In this document: positions 8,969-19,966 of the stretch, one piece after another
Numbering within the stretch: the first letter of the stretch is position 1
How the letters are laid out: every line of letters begins with the position of its first letter
The notes under the pieces: model-generated
Database searches by the model: none
Seen by the model: only the letters and a program-made list of their open reading frames with translations
Told to the model about the DNA's origin: nothing
Translations under genes and position numbers: made by a program
Assembly: GCA_017983465.1 (NCBI GenBank)
Contig: JAGOBK010000006.1
Coordinates: 1 to 64,000, forward strand
Length of the DNA stretch: 64,000 bases
Direction of reading: 5' to 3'
Origin: Crocinitomicaceae bacterium
Lineage (GTDB): Bacteria > Bacteroidota > Bacteroidia > Flavobacteriales_D > Crocinitomicaceae

Positions 8969-9416
8969 ATCGTGCTGCAAGTCCAATGTTCCAACCCAAA
9001 CTTAATCTTGGAATGATTTGTAAGTATGGTCCTGACTCAAGTGCGAAGGTAAACGGGTAATCAGGAAGTTTATATTCCACACCAATGACTCCATTGGCTC
9101 CTAACATAAATCGATCGTTTGCAGAATTTTGCATGATGGGATTTCCTGAAACAATTCCTAATCCAGGTCCTACTCCAAAATAATAATCAACATCATCCAC
9201 CAATGGATGTTGCCACTCGTAATTCCCCTGCATCCATATATAGTTCGTACTACCACCCAAACTTACTTCAACGGCGTTGTTTTCATTCAGAAAATGCTTT
9301 CCATTGATTTGAGTAAAACCTAAACTCGCGAATTTTAGTCCAACAGAATTGGTATAACGCTGACCGAAAAGTGTCAAGGTAAAGAATAGGCTACATGAGA
9401 GCAAGAATGGTTTCAT
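8955..9416 (-). CDS. Small outer-membrane beta-barrel-like protein
   Basis: This 153-residue protein starts with a clean signal peptide (MKPFLLSCSLFFTLTLFGQ). The mature part is rich in alternating hydrophobic and aromatic strands, such as YYFGVGPGLGIV and the closing WNIGLAARYVLP, as expected for an eight-stranded outer-membrane barrel. No specific family is recognised. It starts 18 bases after the lamin-tail gene's stop and overlaps the LETM1-related gene by 14 bases, placing it second in the six-gene run. A structural or small-ligand role in the outer membrane is possible; function is not known. Confidence 0.72.
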   Translation of the reverse strand: MKPFLLSCSLFFTLTLFGQRYTNSVGLKFASLGFTQINGKHFLNENNAVEVSLGGSTNYIWMQGNYEWQHPLVDDVDYYFGVGPGLGIVSGNPIMQNSANDRFMLGANGVIGVEYKLPDYPFTFALESGPYLQIIPRLSLGWNIGLAARYVLP

Positions 9417-9434
9417 CGTTTTGTTTTTACAAAG

Positions 9435-12029
9435 TTACAATTTGCCAGCTAGAGTAAATGGGATTTTTTTTGCTAAAATAACAGCTCCATCAACAGAGAA
9501 AACTTCTATGACCAATACGTAAATTCCTATTGGTGCTTTTGCTTGCTTTGTATTTACACCATCCCAGGTGAAAAATCCAGTTGTCCCCATTAATTCATTG
9601 GAGAAAAGCACTTTCACTTCTCTTCCGAAGTCATCAAAGATTCTTGCTTTTGCTAATAATCCACTTTCTGAAAATGCATAATTGACCACAAGAATATCTT
9701 CAAATCCGTCTTGATCTGGTGAGAAAACATCTTTTTGTAGGCTAATCGATTCGCTTGTTCCTACGTATTGATATTGGGAGTTCACCCTTCCAGGTGTGGC
9801 AAAACCAATCGATTCAGCAGCAGAATGCCAATTGGATGTTTGATTAGAGGAAGCATTTGGTGAGATGCGCTCCAAACTAACACCGTCCGAATTATCGATC
9901 AAAGATAATTGCCAATCTTCCGAATAGGAAACACGGTCGATTTGTTCGCTATTGTAAAATAAATAAATCGTTCCAGAATCGATATTATAACTTGGCATAT
10001 CCATTTGAATCATTCTTCCAGAAATACTTGCGGGATAATTCTCGAGAAGAAAACTAGTGTCTTCACTGATGGCAACATAGGAATTGGGCTCCAAAATAAA
10101 GTGATTCGAAATCGTTTTTAAATTGGAAATGGTATCGTTGTCATAATTCGCGATTTGCCAGTCCTTCAAATCAATCACTTTCGTTGAACGGTTGTATAAT
10201 TCAATAAAATCTTGTCCACCATTCAGTGGATTCGCTAGAATTTCGTTAATGACGATATCGCCTGCTTGCGCTTGTTCCGGCAGGGTGAATTGACCGATGA
10301 ATGTCGTGTCATTTTGCCAACAATCACTCACGGGTCCAAGTTGAATTTGATACGTAGTAGATGGAAGGAAATTCTCGTTGAATTGTATGATGAACTGAGG
10401 TGGTCCGTTTGGATTATCGTTCACCACTTGAATAAAAGTTTCTTGAACACTTAAATTAGGACTCGCACTAATTTGAGTATTTGCAAGGCTAATCGAATCC
10501 ATTCCTTCAGAAAAAGATACTTCCAAGAAGTTTGGACTCAAGGCAATGAGTGAAAGCAAATTTGGATTTTGGTTATCCGGTGCAGCGCTGAAAATGGAAT
10601 TGATTGTTCCTGGAGATCCTCCTGATGGATCATTCGATGCGGACCAATTATCGTAGTTTGAACAGGGATCGTTTAAATTAATTCGCTCCAAACTATAGCC
10701 ACCTTCTTGTTTAGTTGGATCTTGATACCATTCGTCCGTGTAGGTCAATCGGTCGAGGAGTAATCCAGTTTGATCAGTTAATATCAGTTGATCCCCAGCA
10801 TTGTTTAAGCTTGGGAAACTTGTAACTCCCGCAACATTGGTAAATAGTCCGAAGTTTGCATTGGCCGTCAAAACAATATAAGAACCAGGCAGTAACCAAA
10901 AATCACCGATGGTACCATTGGAGGAACCATCACTGATTGTCCAGTTTTGTAAATGAAAAACCTTTCCAGTTTTATTGAAAATCTCTACATATTCCACTTC
11001 TGGAAGTCCGATGACTGGCGTAGGATCAGCGAAAAATTCGGTAATGATTACATCTCCTTTTTCGGCGGTATCCGCTACCAAATAATCAAAACTCGCCGCT
11101 TGATTACCGCTGGTATTTCCAACTAAATCGGAGAGGTTTGCCGTCATTATTGAATACGAATTACCATTTGTCAGTGGAAACATGGTCGTCAAATGCACCA
11201 ATGCTTGATTCACGTTGTCTTGTTGCGCCGTAACAAACGAGTTAAAGGGTAAAATAGCATAGTTTGCGACTTCATTGGCTGATGTTGGACTGAGTGCCTC
11301 GTTAAATAATACATCGACTTGATTTGGAGTAATAACGGAAGCTTGAAGTAAGATCGGGGCTTGAAGATCTAAAATTGGATTGCCAATATAGACGTCATCT
11401 AAGTAGAATTTATTCGCATTACTCGAGGTGTAAGTGCACAAATAGCCAAAATAAGATCCAGAGAGAATATTCGGGTCATTTGCACTTCCTTGAAGGACAT
11501 AATTGGTTCCACCGCTTAGATCTGCGGATAATTCCCAGTTACCACTAGGGTTTAAAACAACTTTAATACCCACCGTAAAACTGTTCGAAATTTGTCCGTC
11601 AACACCTGAACATAATTGCGTAGGAATCCCATTAACCAATTTGAACAGGCGAATCGCATCAACCGCATTTGCTTCTCCAAACAAAACAAAGTAGCCATTT
11701 TGAACAGCCGTCAAATCGCTATTGTCGGCACTTAAAAAGACTTTTCCGTAATTGCTGGAGGATGGAGAAAAACTTTGCTTCACCCAAAAATGCCATTCGT
11801 GATTTTGTAAAGTGTTGATTCCATGAGTCAAGCTCAGGTATGAACTTCCTGAAATGGTATTGTTCAATTGCAACTGTTGACTAGCATTTACAGCGAACTC
11901 TGCCGTGTTTCCATTCCATGATGGATTATTACTGAAATCTCCATCTGAGAAATCATCCATGACTTGGGAATGAACATTCACCGTAGTCATCCATAAAAAA
12001 AACAATATTATTTGGGGAATCCACTTCAT
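9435..12029 (-). CDS. Secreted lamin-tail-domain (LTD) protein, possible T9SS client
   Basis: The protein has 864 residues. A signal peptide (MKWIPQIILFFLWMTTVNVH) is followed by a beta-rich N-terminal region (about 25-225), an Ig/SbsA-like segment, a first lamin-tail domain (about 320-470, beginning GDVIITEFFADPTP), another Ig-like segment, a second lamin-tail domain (about 585-735, beginning GDIVINEILANPLNG), and a C-terminal FlgD/CHU-type domain (DVFSPDQDGFEDIL and WDGVNTKQAKAPIGIYVLVI). That end resembles sorting domains of type IX secretion clients, and a T9SS is encoded at 44-53 kb. ATG 12029 is chosen over a TTG 72 bases upstream because the signal peptide starts there. It is the first gene of the minus-strand run. 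Confidence 0.8.
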   Translation of the reverse strand: MKWIPQIILFFLWMTTVNVHSQVMDDFSDGDFSNNPSWNGNTAEFAVNASQQLQLNNTISGSSYLSLTHGINTLQNHEWHFWVKQSFSPSSSNYGKVFLSADNSDLTAVQNGYFVLFGEANAVDAIRLFKLVNGIPTQLCSGVDGQISNSFTVGIKVVLNPSGNWELSADLSGGTNYVLQGSANDPNILSGSYFGYLCTYTSSNANKFYLDDVYIGNPILDLQAPILLQASVITPNQVDVLFNEALSPTSANEVANYAILPFNSFVTAQQDNVNQALVHLTTMFPLTNGNSYSIMTANLSDLVGNTSGNQAASFDYLVADTAEKGDVIITEFFADPTPVIGLPEVEYVEIFNKTGKVFHLQNWTISDGSSNGTIGDFWLLPGSYIVLTANANFGLFTNVAGVTSFPSLNNAGDQLILTDQTGLLLDRLTYTDEWYQDPTKQEGGYSLERINLNDPCSNYDNWSASNDPSGGSPGTINSIFSAAPDNQNPNLLSLIALSPNFLEVSFSEGMDSISLANTQISASPNLSVQETFIQVVNDNPNGPPQFIIQFNENFLPSTTYQIQLGPVSDCWQNDTTFIGQFTLPEQAQAGDIVINEILANPLNGGQDFIELYNRSTKVIDLKDWQIANYDNDTISNLKTISNHFILEPNSYVAISEDTSFLLENYPASISGRMIQMDMPSYNIDSGTIYLFYNSEQIDRVSYSEDWQLSLIDNSDGVSLERISPNASSNQTSNWHSAAESIGFATPGRVNSQYQYVGTSESISLQKDVFSPDQDGFEDILVVNYAFSESGLLAKARIFDDFGREVKVLFSNELMGTTGFFTWDGVNTKQAKAPIGIYVLVIEVFSVDGAVILAKKIPFTLAGKL

Positions 12030-16150: not shown

Positions 16151-16182
16151 TTTGAGTGATTTAAAATGATTGCGTACATTTG
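16151..16182 (+). promoter_or_regulatory. Bacteroidota-type promoter of the TPP riboswitch transcript
   Basis: TTTG (16151-16154), a 20-base spacer and TACATTTG (16175-16182) match the Bacteroidota housekeeping consensus TTTG-N19-21-TAnnTTTG exactly. Transcription should start about 16187-16189, at the beginning of the riboswitch P1 stem. This is the best promoter in the window. Confidence 0.75.
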
Positions 16183-16185
16183 TCC

Positions 16186-16259
16186 CGTCTCTAAGGGGTG
16201 CCGAAAGGCTGAGATTACACCCATTGAACCTGTAGGATAATGCCTGCGCAGGGAAGATG
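16186..16259 (+). promoter_or_regulatory. TPP (THI-element) riboswitch
   Basis: All conserved blocks of the thiamine pyrophosphate aptamer are present in order: GGGGTGCC, GGCTGAGAT, ACCC, TTGAACCTG, GGATAATGCCTGCGCAGGGA. A P1 stem can form between CGTCT (16186-16190) and AGATG (16255-16259) with one G-U pair. It lies 64 bases before the start of a TonB-dependent receptor, so that receptor should be expressed when thiamine pyrophosphate is low. Confidence 0.96.
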
Positions 16260-16264
16260 ACCGA

Positions 16265-16318
16265 GCTAATTGTTATTTATTCACCAAGAATTAGCCCCTT
16301 GTTCTTGTTTAATTTTTT
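16265..16318 (+). promoter_or_regulatory. Candidate riboswitch expression platform
   Basis: Two mutually exclusive hairpins are possible: GCTAATT (16265-16271) with AATTAGC (16289-16295), or CAAGAA (16285-16290) with TTCTTG (16302-16307). The second precedes a T-rich stretch with six Ts and would act as a weak terminator; the first would prevent it. This is hand folding without energies. Confidence 0.35.
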
Positions 16319-16323
16319 ATAAA

Positions 16324-18792
16324 ATGAAAACAAGAATTATTACCAGTGTCCTTTTTTTAGGTCTCTCTCACCTTGCGTTCTCTCAACAACGCATCCATGG
16401 TGTTGTTGAAGATCGAACAGGAGCAGTTATTCAAGCCGCCCAAGTTTCTGTATTGAATTCCAATGTTCAAGTAAATTCAGATGCGAAGGGGAAATTTGAA
16501 TTCGCACAAATCCCTGCTGCAGATTCAACCTACACAATTTTGGTTGAAAAACCGGGATTTTTACCGCAATCGATGACTATTTCTTCAAATTCTAATGAAG
16601 AAGTTAAAGTTCTGCTTTTCTCTAATATGAAAACCTTAGAAGACATACACGTGAACACCACACGCTTGTCGGATTTTAGTACCTCTCAAATTTTAATACG
16701 AAAAATCAATCCACTGGAACGGAAGAATTTCGGTCAAGATATTCCGGTTCTTCTGGAGGCAACGCCATCCTTGGTTACAACCTCAGATGCAGGAGCTGGA
16801 GTTGGCTACACTGGACTTCGTATTCGAGGTGTGGATGCAACACGCATCAATGTGACAATCAATGGAATTCCAGTGAATGATCCAGAATCACATGCGGTTT
16901 ATTGGGTCAACATGCCAGATTTAGCTTCGTCCATTGAAAACATACAAATTCAACGTGGCGTTGGATCATCCACTAATGGAGCAGCTTCATTTGGAGCGTC
17001 GTTAAACATTAAAACACAAGATATTTCTGAAAAACCATTCGGGTCAATTGACCAATCGATGGGTTCTTTTGGAACGTATAAAACCACGATCAAAGCGGGA
17101 ACAGGGATCATCAACAAACATTTTTCCCTAGAGACTAGAATGTCCAGTATTCAATCCAATGGATACCTAGATCGTGCAAGTTCGGACTTAAAATCTTACT
17201 TCATTTCTGGTGCGTACATTGGAAAAAAGTCTGTTCTAAAAGCCATCGTTTTTAGTGGCAAAGAAATCACTTACCAAGCTTGGTACGGAACGCCAGAAAG
17301 CAGGGTGAATGGCGATACAACTGCCATGAATGCCTACGCTGATCGAAATGGATTAAGTTCTGAAGACCGTCAAAATTTGCTGAATGCAGGAAGAACCTAT
17401 AATTTTTATACTTACAAAAATGAAGTGGATAATTATCAGCAGGATAATTATCAATTGCATTTTACACACACCTTCAACGATAAATTAATTTTAAATCTTG
17501 CCGGACACTACACTTACGGTCGTGGATACTATGAGCAATACCGCAAGGGAGAAAATTTAACGGATTATGGTTTAAATCCGGTGATTATCGGTTCGGATAC
17601 CGTTCAACAAACGGATTTGATTCGTCGCTTATGGTTGGATAATGATTTTGTTGGAGCAGTTTATGGACTTACCTATAAACCAACAGCTCATTTGGATTTT
17701 GTTTTGGGCGGATCCGCAAATACTTATTTTGGAAGACATTTTGGAGAGTTGGTTTGGGCACAGTATGCATCGAATAGTGAAATTTACCAACGCTACTACA
17801 GCAACGATTCCAGAAAATCAGAAGTCAGTTCCTATGTAAAAGCCGTGTATAAACGAGATCGTTTTGATGTGTATACGGATTTGCAATTTAGACACGTGGA
17901 TTACTCCTTTATTGGTAAAGAACTGGTGGACGGAATTCCTATCGATGTGAATCAAGCAGTTCAATTTAATTTCTTCAATCCGAAAGTTGGTGCAAGTTTT
18001 AAATTAAACACAAATCAAACCTTGTTCTTGAATGGCGGAATCAGTCATCGTGAACCCGTTCGTGCAGATTTCATTGCCAGCACAGCTGAAAACCGTCCAA
18101 CTTTTGAAACCTTGCAAGATGTGGAATTTGGACATCAAATAAATACAAGTAGATTGAGTTTAACGACGAATCTTTACTACATGAATTACCAAAATCAATT
18201 ATTATTAACTGGAGAGATCAATGATGTGGGTGCCTACATTCACACCAATGTGGCCAAAAGTTACCGAATGGGTGTGGAGCTGTATGGATCTTATCGTTTT
18301 GATAAAAAGCTAAAAATGACGGGAGGAATTACGCTAAGTCAAAACAAAATCCCTCAATTTAATGAATACGTAGATGTCTATTTGGATACCTTGCCCTATT
18401 ACACTCAGAAAGTGATTTCTCACCAAAACACGGATATGTCTTTTTCACCAAATGTTGTTGGTAATATTGGCTTGGAATGGATACCGTTAGACAATTTCAC
18501 CATCGCTTGGATGTCCAAACTTGTGGGTAGACAATTTTTGGATAATACCGGAGATGTCAATCGCAGTATAGACCCATATAATTTCTCGAATCTTCAAGTA
18601 AACTATTCAATTTTCGATAAGTTTTGCAAAGAAATTCAATTTGGTGTCATGGTAAATAATGTATTAAACCAATATTATTCGAATAACGGTTATACGTTTT
18701 CGTACGCATATGGTGAACAAACGACCACCGAGAATTTCTACTACCCTCAAGCTGGAAGAAATTTCATGGTACGTGTGCTCTTAAAGTTTTAA
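16324..18792 (+). CDS. TonB-dependent receptor, probable thiamine uptake
   Basis: This 822-residue outer-membrane receptor has a signal peptide (MKTRIITSVLFLGLSHLAFS), a carboxypeptidase-regulatory-like domain (about 22-100), a plug domain (about 120-235; GLRIRGVDATRINVTINGIP) and a 22-strand-type barrel ending in FMVRVLLKF. It takes up a ligand using TonB energy. The TPP riboswitch directly upstream points to thiamine or a precursor, as described for riboswitch-controlled receptors in Bacteroidota; specificity is inferred. ATG 16324 is chosen over an upstream frame extension because the signal peptide begins there. No inner-membrane thiamine transporter is adjacent. Confidence 0.9.
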   Translation: MKTRIITSVLFLGLSHLAFSQQRIHGVVEDRTGAVIQAAQVSVLNSNVQVNSDAKGKFEFAQIPAADSTYTILVEKPGFLPQSMTISSNSNEEVKVLLFSNMKTLEDIHVNTTRLSDFSTSQILIRKINPLERKNFGQDIPVLLEATPSLVTTSDAGAGVGYTGLRIRGVDATRINVTINGIPVNDPESHAVYWVNMPDLASSIENIQIQRGVGSSTNGAASFGASLNIKTQDISEKPFGSIDQSMGSFGTYKTTIKAGTGIINKHFSLETRMSSIQSNGYLDRASSDLKSYFISGAYIGKKSVLKAIVFSGKEITYQAWYGTPESRVNGDTTAMNAYADRNGLSSEDRQNLLNAGRTYNFYTYKNEVDNYQQDNYQLHFTHTFNDKLILNLAGHYTYGRGYYEQYRKGENLTDYGLNPVIIGSDTVQQTDLIRRLWLDNDFVGAVYGLTYKPTAHLDFVLGGSANTYFGRHFGELVWAQYASNSEIYQRYYSNDSRKSEVSSYVKAVYKRDRFDVYTDLQFRHVDYSFIGKELVDGIPIDVNQAVQFNFFNPKVGASFKLNTNQTLFLNGGISHREPVRADFIASTAENRPTFETLQDVEFGHQINTSRLSLTTNLYYMNYQNQLLLTGEINDVGAYIHTNVAKSYRMGVELYGSYRFDKKLKMTGGITLSQNKIPQFNEYVDVYLDTLPYYTQKVISHQNTDMSFSPNVVGNIGLEWIPLDNFTIAWMSKLVGRQFLDNTGDVNRSIDPYNFSNLQVNYSIFDKFCKEIQFGVMVNNVLNQYYSNNGYTFSYAYGEQTTTENFYYPQAGRNFMVRVLLKF

Positions 18793-18817
18793 TTGTACTT
18801 TTGAGAAAATATTGATC

Positions 18818-19966
18818 ATGAAAATCTTACTTTCCTTCATCATTTTATTAAGTGTGCCTACCTTCTTTGCGCAGCAAGTAGAGGTTGTTACGGGCGGAGT
18901 ACCTGAGCCAATACTTGTCAGTATCGCTCCACCGGATTCGTTAGTGAATTTTCCTGATACAGAGGCTGAATATCCTGGTGGACCAGATTCGTTGGCTGAA
19001 TTTATTTTCGTGAATTTTATTTTACCAGATGATACTGCTGAAGTATTATGGGACCAACGTGTTTACCTCTCTTTCATAGTTGAAAAAGATGGAACCATTA
19101 ATAATATTGTTGTCGAAAAAGGGGCAAATGAATTGTATGATTCGATTTGTGTGGCTGTTGTGAAACAAATGCCAAAATGGATTCCTGCTCAAAAGGACGG
19201 ACTTCCAGTTCGCTCATTGATGCGCTTACCGATTAACATTGATGATGCCATTATTGGTACAGATGATGATTTCGAACTTTCAGACGAAGAATGGTCCGAA
19301 GAAGATTCCGAAGACGAAGGTTCAAAACGCAAATTCGGAAACGGACACTATGCTGGATTTGATGTCTATTTTTCTCAATTTGCCAACGAAAATGGAGATG
19401 TTACGTTTGACCAAAATCCATATTGGGAAATCAATCAAATGAAATCGTTTGGATTTAATTACAACATGTTTGATTTAAAGTTTCCAATCGCTGGAAAGCA
19501 ATTAGGAATAACTACTGGATTAGGTTTTGGATACCACAATTATAGTTTCAGAAACAACTATGTTTTAGCGCATACAGCGGATACGATTTTTGCTATTCAA
19601 GATACAGTTTTCGATTTTAGAACCAATAAATTGCAAGTCGCATCGGTTTCAATTCCCCTTTTATTGGATTATTCTTTCGGTAAAAATTTTGAAAAAAGTT
19701 ACTACATGGCAGTTGGGGTAATCGGTACATATAATTACGGAACCAAACAAACCTTGACAGGTACCTATGCAAATGGAGATCAATTTGTGAATTCCACTAT
19801 TTCAGCATTTAATATGAATAGATGGACCTTAGATGCTACAACTCGTATCGGTTACGGTCACTTTGGGATGTTTATAAGCTATCAGTTGAATTCCATGTTC
19901 AAAACTGGACATACAGTTGCTGTTTATCCATTCCGTATCGGATTCAATGTTCTTTTTGGAATTTAA
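18818..19966 (+). CDS. TonB C-terminal-domain / outer-membrane beta-barrel fusion
   Basis: This 382-residue protein has a signal peptide (MKILLSFIILLSVPTFFAQQ) and a TonB_C-like domain (about 45-145), recognisable by YPGGPDSLAEFI, VYLSFIVEKDGTINNIVV and MPKWIPAQKDGLPVRSLM. A strongly acidic linker (about 150-172) follows, then a PorT-like barrel of about 200 residues ending in IGFNVLFGI. TonB_C normally sits at the end of an inner-membrane-anchored TonB; here the only N-terminal hydrophobic stretch looks cleavable. It starts 25 bases after the thiamine receptor and may share its riboswitch control. The upstream TTG 18812 is an alternative start adding two residues. Confidence 0.75.
   Translation: MKILLSFIILLSVPTFFAQQVEVVTGGVPEPILVSIAPPDSLVNFPDTEAEYPGGPDSLAEFIFVNFILPDDTAEVLWDQRVYLSFIVEKDGTINNIVVEKGANELYDSICVAVVKQMPKWIPAQKDGLPVRSLMRLPINIDDAIIGTDDDFELSDEEWSEEDSEDEGSKRKFGNGHYAGFDVYFSQFANENGDVTFDQNPYWEINQMKSFGFNYNMFDLKFPIAGKQLGITTGLGFGYHNYSFRNNYVLAHTADTIFAIQDTVFDFRTNKLQVASVSIPLLLDYSFGKNFEKSYYMAVGVIGTYNYGTKQTLTGTYANGDQFVNSTISAFNMNRWTLDATTRIGYGHFGMFISYQLNSMFKTGHTVAVYPFRIGFNVLFGI

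Follow-up and report, generated by a model that had tools for sequence, protein, structure and literature searches.

Organization of the locus

The window, by which we mean the whole stretch of 64,000 nucleotides that was analysed, contains an open frame whose product joins, in this order, a Sec signal peptide, a TonB C-terminal domain (TonB_C), an acidic linker and an outer-membrane barrel of the 8-strand type. The gene follows that of a probable thiamine receptor. The features of this region are listed below.

16175..16182, + strand: sigma-A -7 box TACATTTG, probably the promoter for riboswitch and receptor together (TAnnTTTG pattern; located just before the aptamer in relatives)
16184..16271, + strand: TPP riboswitch aptamer (RF00059, 48.7 bits, E 1.5e-8)
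16324..18792, + strand: TonB-dependent receptor, probable thiamine receptor of the OMR1/OMthi type, with CarboxypepD_reg (Pfam, 47.7 bits), plug (38.5 bits) and barrel
16636..16656, + strand: putative TonB-box-like segment of the receptor, LEDIHVN, between CarboxypepD_reg and plug (receptor alignment; assigned by inspection)
18796..18803, + strand: sigma-A -7 box TACTTTTG between receptor and fusion, probably a separate promoter for the latter (TAnnTTTG, conserved placement)
18818..19966, + strand: fusion gene, 382 aa, a single open frame that is intact in about 30 loci
18818..18871, + strand: signal peptide MKILLSFIILLSVPTFFA, then Q (sequence inspection; fits the Bacteroidetes Q-rule)
18947..19243, + strand: TonB_C domain, residues 44-142, Pfam core 81-140 (Pfam, PDB profile, AF2/Foldseek)
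19241..19318, + strand: acidic linker, residues 142-167, with D or E at 15 of 26 positions (sequence)
19331..19963, + strand: outer-membrane beta-barrel, OMP_b-brl_2, residues 172-382, eight long predicted strands (Pfam, AF2, Foldseek)

The coordinates and frame of the fusion gene, and the 25 bases between the receptor stop codon and the fusion start, were re-checked against the window sequence and agree in full with the preliminary description. The TPP riboswitch that it placed before the receptor is real despite a score below the Rfam gathering cut-off for RF00059 (54.3); it is the single TPP match found in the genome, and such a riboswitch precedes the orthologous receptor across the order. 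No match to ThiC was found in this genome, which is 99.97% complete, and one PnuC/PnuT-type transporter is present; thus the bacterium probably needs to take up thiamine or a precursor of it. Thiamine would be the substrate of the receptor.

The preliminary description also implied that the riboswitch controls the fusion along with the receptor. This implication is weakened by the sequence in the gap between the two genes, which fits the sigma-A -7 box consensus TAnnTTTG (PMC9723704). The strict pattern is found in the gap of 27 of 36 relatives and most of the others are near the consensus. Its usual position is 14-16 nt ahead of the start codon, within a gap that is itself mostly 20-30 bases long, and it is kept even in clades with protein identities of about 40% or below. 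Across both strands of the 64-kb window TAnnTTTG occurs 80 times, no more than chance, and a generic sigma-70 promoter scan likewise returned no more than chance; it is the consistent placement of the box in so short a gap that is not expected by chance, with the caveat that the relatives are no independent samples. The fusion is probably transcribed from a promoter of its own, with read-through from the receptor possible besides, and the case for the riboswitch as its sole control is correspondingly weaker.

Domains of the fusion protein

The fusion begins with a short signal-peptide-like segment that ends in FFA followed by QQ. In Bacteroidetes, a Q is expected after the signal peptide cleavage site (PMC5837995). 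This segment and the acidic linker, both claimed earlier, were seen in the sequence by inspection. Just ~25 residues lie between the signal-peptide-like segment and the TonB_C domain, and the uncleaved N-terminal TM anchor, motor-binding segment and Pro-rich rod of TonB-type proteins are absent by inspection.

The Pfam scores for TonB_C at residues 81-140 straddle the cut-off of 24.6 bits: 22.0 bits for the whole protein, 23.6 for the N-terminal half alone and 25.0 in a six-frame search. The domain, recognised by eye in the preliminary description, proved genuine. It was matched in 24 of 28 fusion homologues (best 3.5e-17), and a family profile searched against the PDB matched exclusively TonB/HasB chains (best E 2.2e-8). 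The AF2 model of the full protein, which is weak because it was built on few sequences, has a mean pLDDT of 44, with about 55-78 in the TonB_C part. At this low confidence, the N-terminal part shows the helix-strand-strand-helix-strand order of the TonB-CTD, and eight long strands form the barrel. In Foldseek searches with the N-terminal part, the top matches were TolA-III and TonB-CTD, with probabilities of 1.00 and no E below 0.001.

For the barrel, OMP_b-brl_2 scored 35.8 bits at residues 171-356 (cut-off 27) and was matched in 24 of the 28 fusion homologues; seven matches in the genome exceed the cut-off. The top Foldseek matches of a barrel-only model were PagL, OmpA and PagP (probabilities of 0.99-1.00, none with E below 0.001). 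The earlier term "PorT-like" holds for an outer-membrane barrel but not for strict PorT/SprT identity: the equivalog model NCBIfam NF052311, with its cut-off of 125, gave 16.4 bits. Together, signal peptide and barrel support the view that TonB_C would be held at the outer membrane on its periplasmic face. Related barrels occur inside open frames of ~450-540 aa in many genomes of the class (e.g. G279:C29, G126:C3), which suggests a different N-terminal extension or fusion that is widespread in the class.

The contrast drawn earlier with TonB_C domains anchored in the inner membrane is weaker than claimed. Of the four clear TonB_C proteins that the genome encodes, just one has a TM anchor and ExbB/ExbD neighbours; the other three are without an anchor. 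One TonB_C protein in this genome, 217 aa long (L038; G000:C7, ~371505-371852), has a lipoprotein-type signal (LFVSC) and no TM anchor, and is another candidate for an outer-membrane-held TonB tip. At a further locus (L128; G011:C50:161500-164500), two tandem TonB_C domains follow a lipoprotein-like start, adjoining a further small secreted TonB_C protein.

The single-protein TonB_C score, which sits at the cut-off, might raise the suspicion of a frameshift, a chimera or a chance match. Such an artefact can safely be set aside, since the frames are intact and stop-free in many separate genomes, the scores hold at the family level and the PDB profile matches TonB chains. The fusion is a real, conserved gene of freshwater Crocinitomicaceae bacteria that adjoins the thiamine receptor. 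It had no match among the PHROGs phage families. A literature search, in which subscription journals were thinly covered, found no paper on a TonB_C-barrel fusion; within that coverage the architecture looks new, with parts that are already known.

Distribution, constraint and origin

A survey of the neighbourhoods of homologues, together with a check for frameshifts, found the fusion intact and directly behind this receptor in about 30 loci within the genus, whichever gene comes next. In G003, G014 and G029 the fusion is located away from the receptor. Seven genomes (G009, G016, G018, G025, G026, G030 and G032) have a barrel without TonB_C in the same place, and in fifteen order-level loci the TPP-receptor has no adjoining barrel. 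When 295 genomes of the class were surveyed, with the best six candidates per genome scored, full-length matches were found solely in this genus's five genomes. Downstream of the fusion there is some variation: in L003, a gene for a 790-aa secreted protein (9143-11515, minus strand), with a gliding-motility-type C-terminal region by eye, lies between the fusion and fmt, and L002, L005, L007 and L010 have a gap of that size in the same position, which the window does not. Two contigs labelled Chryseobacterium gleum (L007) and Polynucleobacter meluiroseus (L011) bear this Crocinitomicaceae locus and are likely mislabelled or mixed bins.

TonB_C, barrel and receptor are under similar purifying selection, with dN/dS of 0.07, 0.08 and 0.06, respectively, at a dS near saturation. 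The linkers evolve faster (about 0.2; 0.23 for the acidic linker). The agreement of the TonB_C value with those of barrel and receptor argues that the domain is kept for a reason. The anchored TonBs of the genus retain the proline of the (Y/F)P segment, and YP or FP is retained in 10 of 31 fused domains. The YP segment has been lost in the window clade, which reads ILPDDTAEV, and in another large clade, which reads FADTNETFPWGE. The YP motif presumably adjoins the region around residue 160 of E. coli TonB. That region crosslinks to TonB boxes (PMC11658791). The remodelling of the segment in two clades, including that of the window, argues against simple TonB mimicry there.

The anchored TonB proteins of the genus share the TonB_C domain, and the fused domains of G003 and G033 share 56-58% identity with an anchored TonB tip. 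Those of G014 and G029 group with the TonBs of their own genomes (support 100/100), and the AU test rejects a tree in which all fused domains form one clade (p 0.001). A TonB tip has thus been grafted or replaced at least once, and the process may have been repeated. With G014 and G029 left out, a single fused clade is merely marginally disfavoured (p 0.058); for this reason, and owing to its long branch, the TonB_C of the window clade is not assignable to a particular TonB. The barrel tree nests the barrel-only versions within the fusions, which on a first reading indicated one gain followed by loss in six genomes. This reading was dropped, since in the receptor tree the barrel-only clade branches as sister to all others, favouring barrel-only first, and a single fusion clade is compatible with the barrel data (AU p 0.22). 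The fusion proteins of L051 (G029) and L032 (G014) are nearly identical, although they come from two species, and both lie away from the thiamine receptor; transfer or domain exchange is possible.

Proposed role and comparison with known systems

Our leading interpretation, held tentatively, is that the fusion is a receptor-side accessory barrel with a passive, TonB-like docking domain, and not an energiser. The protein would serve as an outer-membrane accessory of the adjoining thiamine receptor, with its barrel in the outer membrane and its N-terminus periplasmic, as in other 8-stranded barrels, so that TonB_C would hang below the membrane on the acidic tether. Since TM helix, motor-binding segment and Pro-rich rod are missing, TonB_C should not transmit force, and since a complete ExbB-ExbD-ExbD-TonB operon is present elsewhere in the genome, the fusion need not do so. 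Most likely, the domain would be a passive docking module at the periplasmic mouth of the receptor, where it would contact either the N-terminal extension/TonB-box region of the receptor or the tip of the real TonB, and so keep receptor and TonB close together. Docking is favoured over an energiser or a faithful decoy because of the absent anchor, the separate Ton operon and the altered YP segment. It agrees with the pairing of fusion and receptor regardless of the next gene, with the equal constraint on TonB_C, barrel and receptor, with the TonB ancestry apparent from the retained YP/FP motifs and the grouping of the G014/G029 domains, and with the probable need for thiamine or precursor uptake. 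Set against it are the two clades in which the YP segment has been lost, the genomes that lack TonB_C or have no barrel beside the receptor, the three genomes with the fusion elsewhere, the probable separate promoter, which weakens co-expression, and the low confidence of the structure model.

Several of these points would suit the main rival, an OmpA-like envelope tether, which we regard as unlikely but serious. Here the barrel would be an anchor, the TonB_C-fold domain would bind peptidoglycan or another periplasmic partner, and proximity to the receptor would be incidental. The layout of 8-strand barrel plus periplasmic domain, the resemblance of the barrel model to OmpA, PagL and PagP, the probable own promoter and the absence of the YP segment from two clades are all consistent with such a tether; its persistent pairing with one specific receptor in some 30 loci is not what a tether would call for, nor is the retention of the barrel without TonB_C in seven genomes.

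Two further explanations appear improbable, both to the same degree. As a competitor or decoy, the domain would occupy the TonB box of the receptor and block or gate the real TonB until substrate binds; the TonB-derived fold and the YP/FP motif of 10 of 31 fused domains would allow this, but the window clade and a second large clade have lost the motif, and inhibition of a vitamin receptor has no obvious benefit in a genome without ThiC. Alternatively, the barrel may be the functional part and TonB_C an N-terminal extension that the protein can do without, whose lineage-specific role has nothing to do with TonB transport. Barrel-only versions exist at the same locus, and the columns that are invariant across the wider family are mostly in the barrel; however, TonB_C is retained in most of the genus, and its dN/dS equals that of barrel and receptor, unlike that of the real linkers.

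In the usual picture of TonB-dependent transport, TonB extends across to the receptor from its place in the inner membrane. A bolder form of the docking proposal, which we consider doubtful, is that a TonB tip anchored in the outer membrane, which the cell's own TonB has supplied anew at least once, stably complexes one vitamin receptor and alters TonB recruitment, as an undescribed receptor-side partner. If true, a TonB tip fixed there would offer a natural experiment on the way in which TonB locates and pulls its receptors, and a clue to competition for vitamin B1 among bacteria that need an outside supply. Even as a structural tether, the fusion would be a documented case of the TonB tip being put to new use in the outer membrane.

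The fusion shares with TonB (PF03544) the fold and ancestry of the C-terminal domain, all PDB profile matches being TonB/HasB. It differs in having no TM anchor, motor-binding segment, Pro-rich rod or ExbB/ExbD neighbours, in the outer-membrane barrel that follows TonB_C, and in the remodelled YP segment of the window clade. Its barrel belongs with the OMP_b-brl_2 barrels of Bacteroidota (PF13568) by its score above the Pfam cut-off, but the other members examined bear short linkers or unrelated N-terminal parts and not TonB_C. To PorT/SprT of type IX secretion there is only a weak barrel similarity, far under the equivalog cut-off. As in OmpA-type proteins, an 8-strand barrel is joined to a periplasmic globular domain; in the fusion, this domain is N-terminal with a TonB_C fold, whereas that of OmpA is a C-terminal peptidoglycan-binding domain, and the Pfam scan of the fusion contained no OmpA domain. 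The neighbouring receptor resembles OMR1/OMthi (BT2390), a TPP-regulated thiamine receptor of B. thetaiotaomicron that has been studied genetically (PMC5613172), in the TPP riboswitch directly upstream and in being a plug-containing TonB-dependent receptor. The portion of that account consulted here mentions no TonB_C-barrel partner for the Bacteroides system, and the order-level relatives are also without one.
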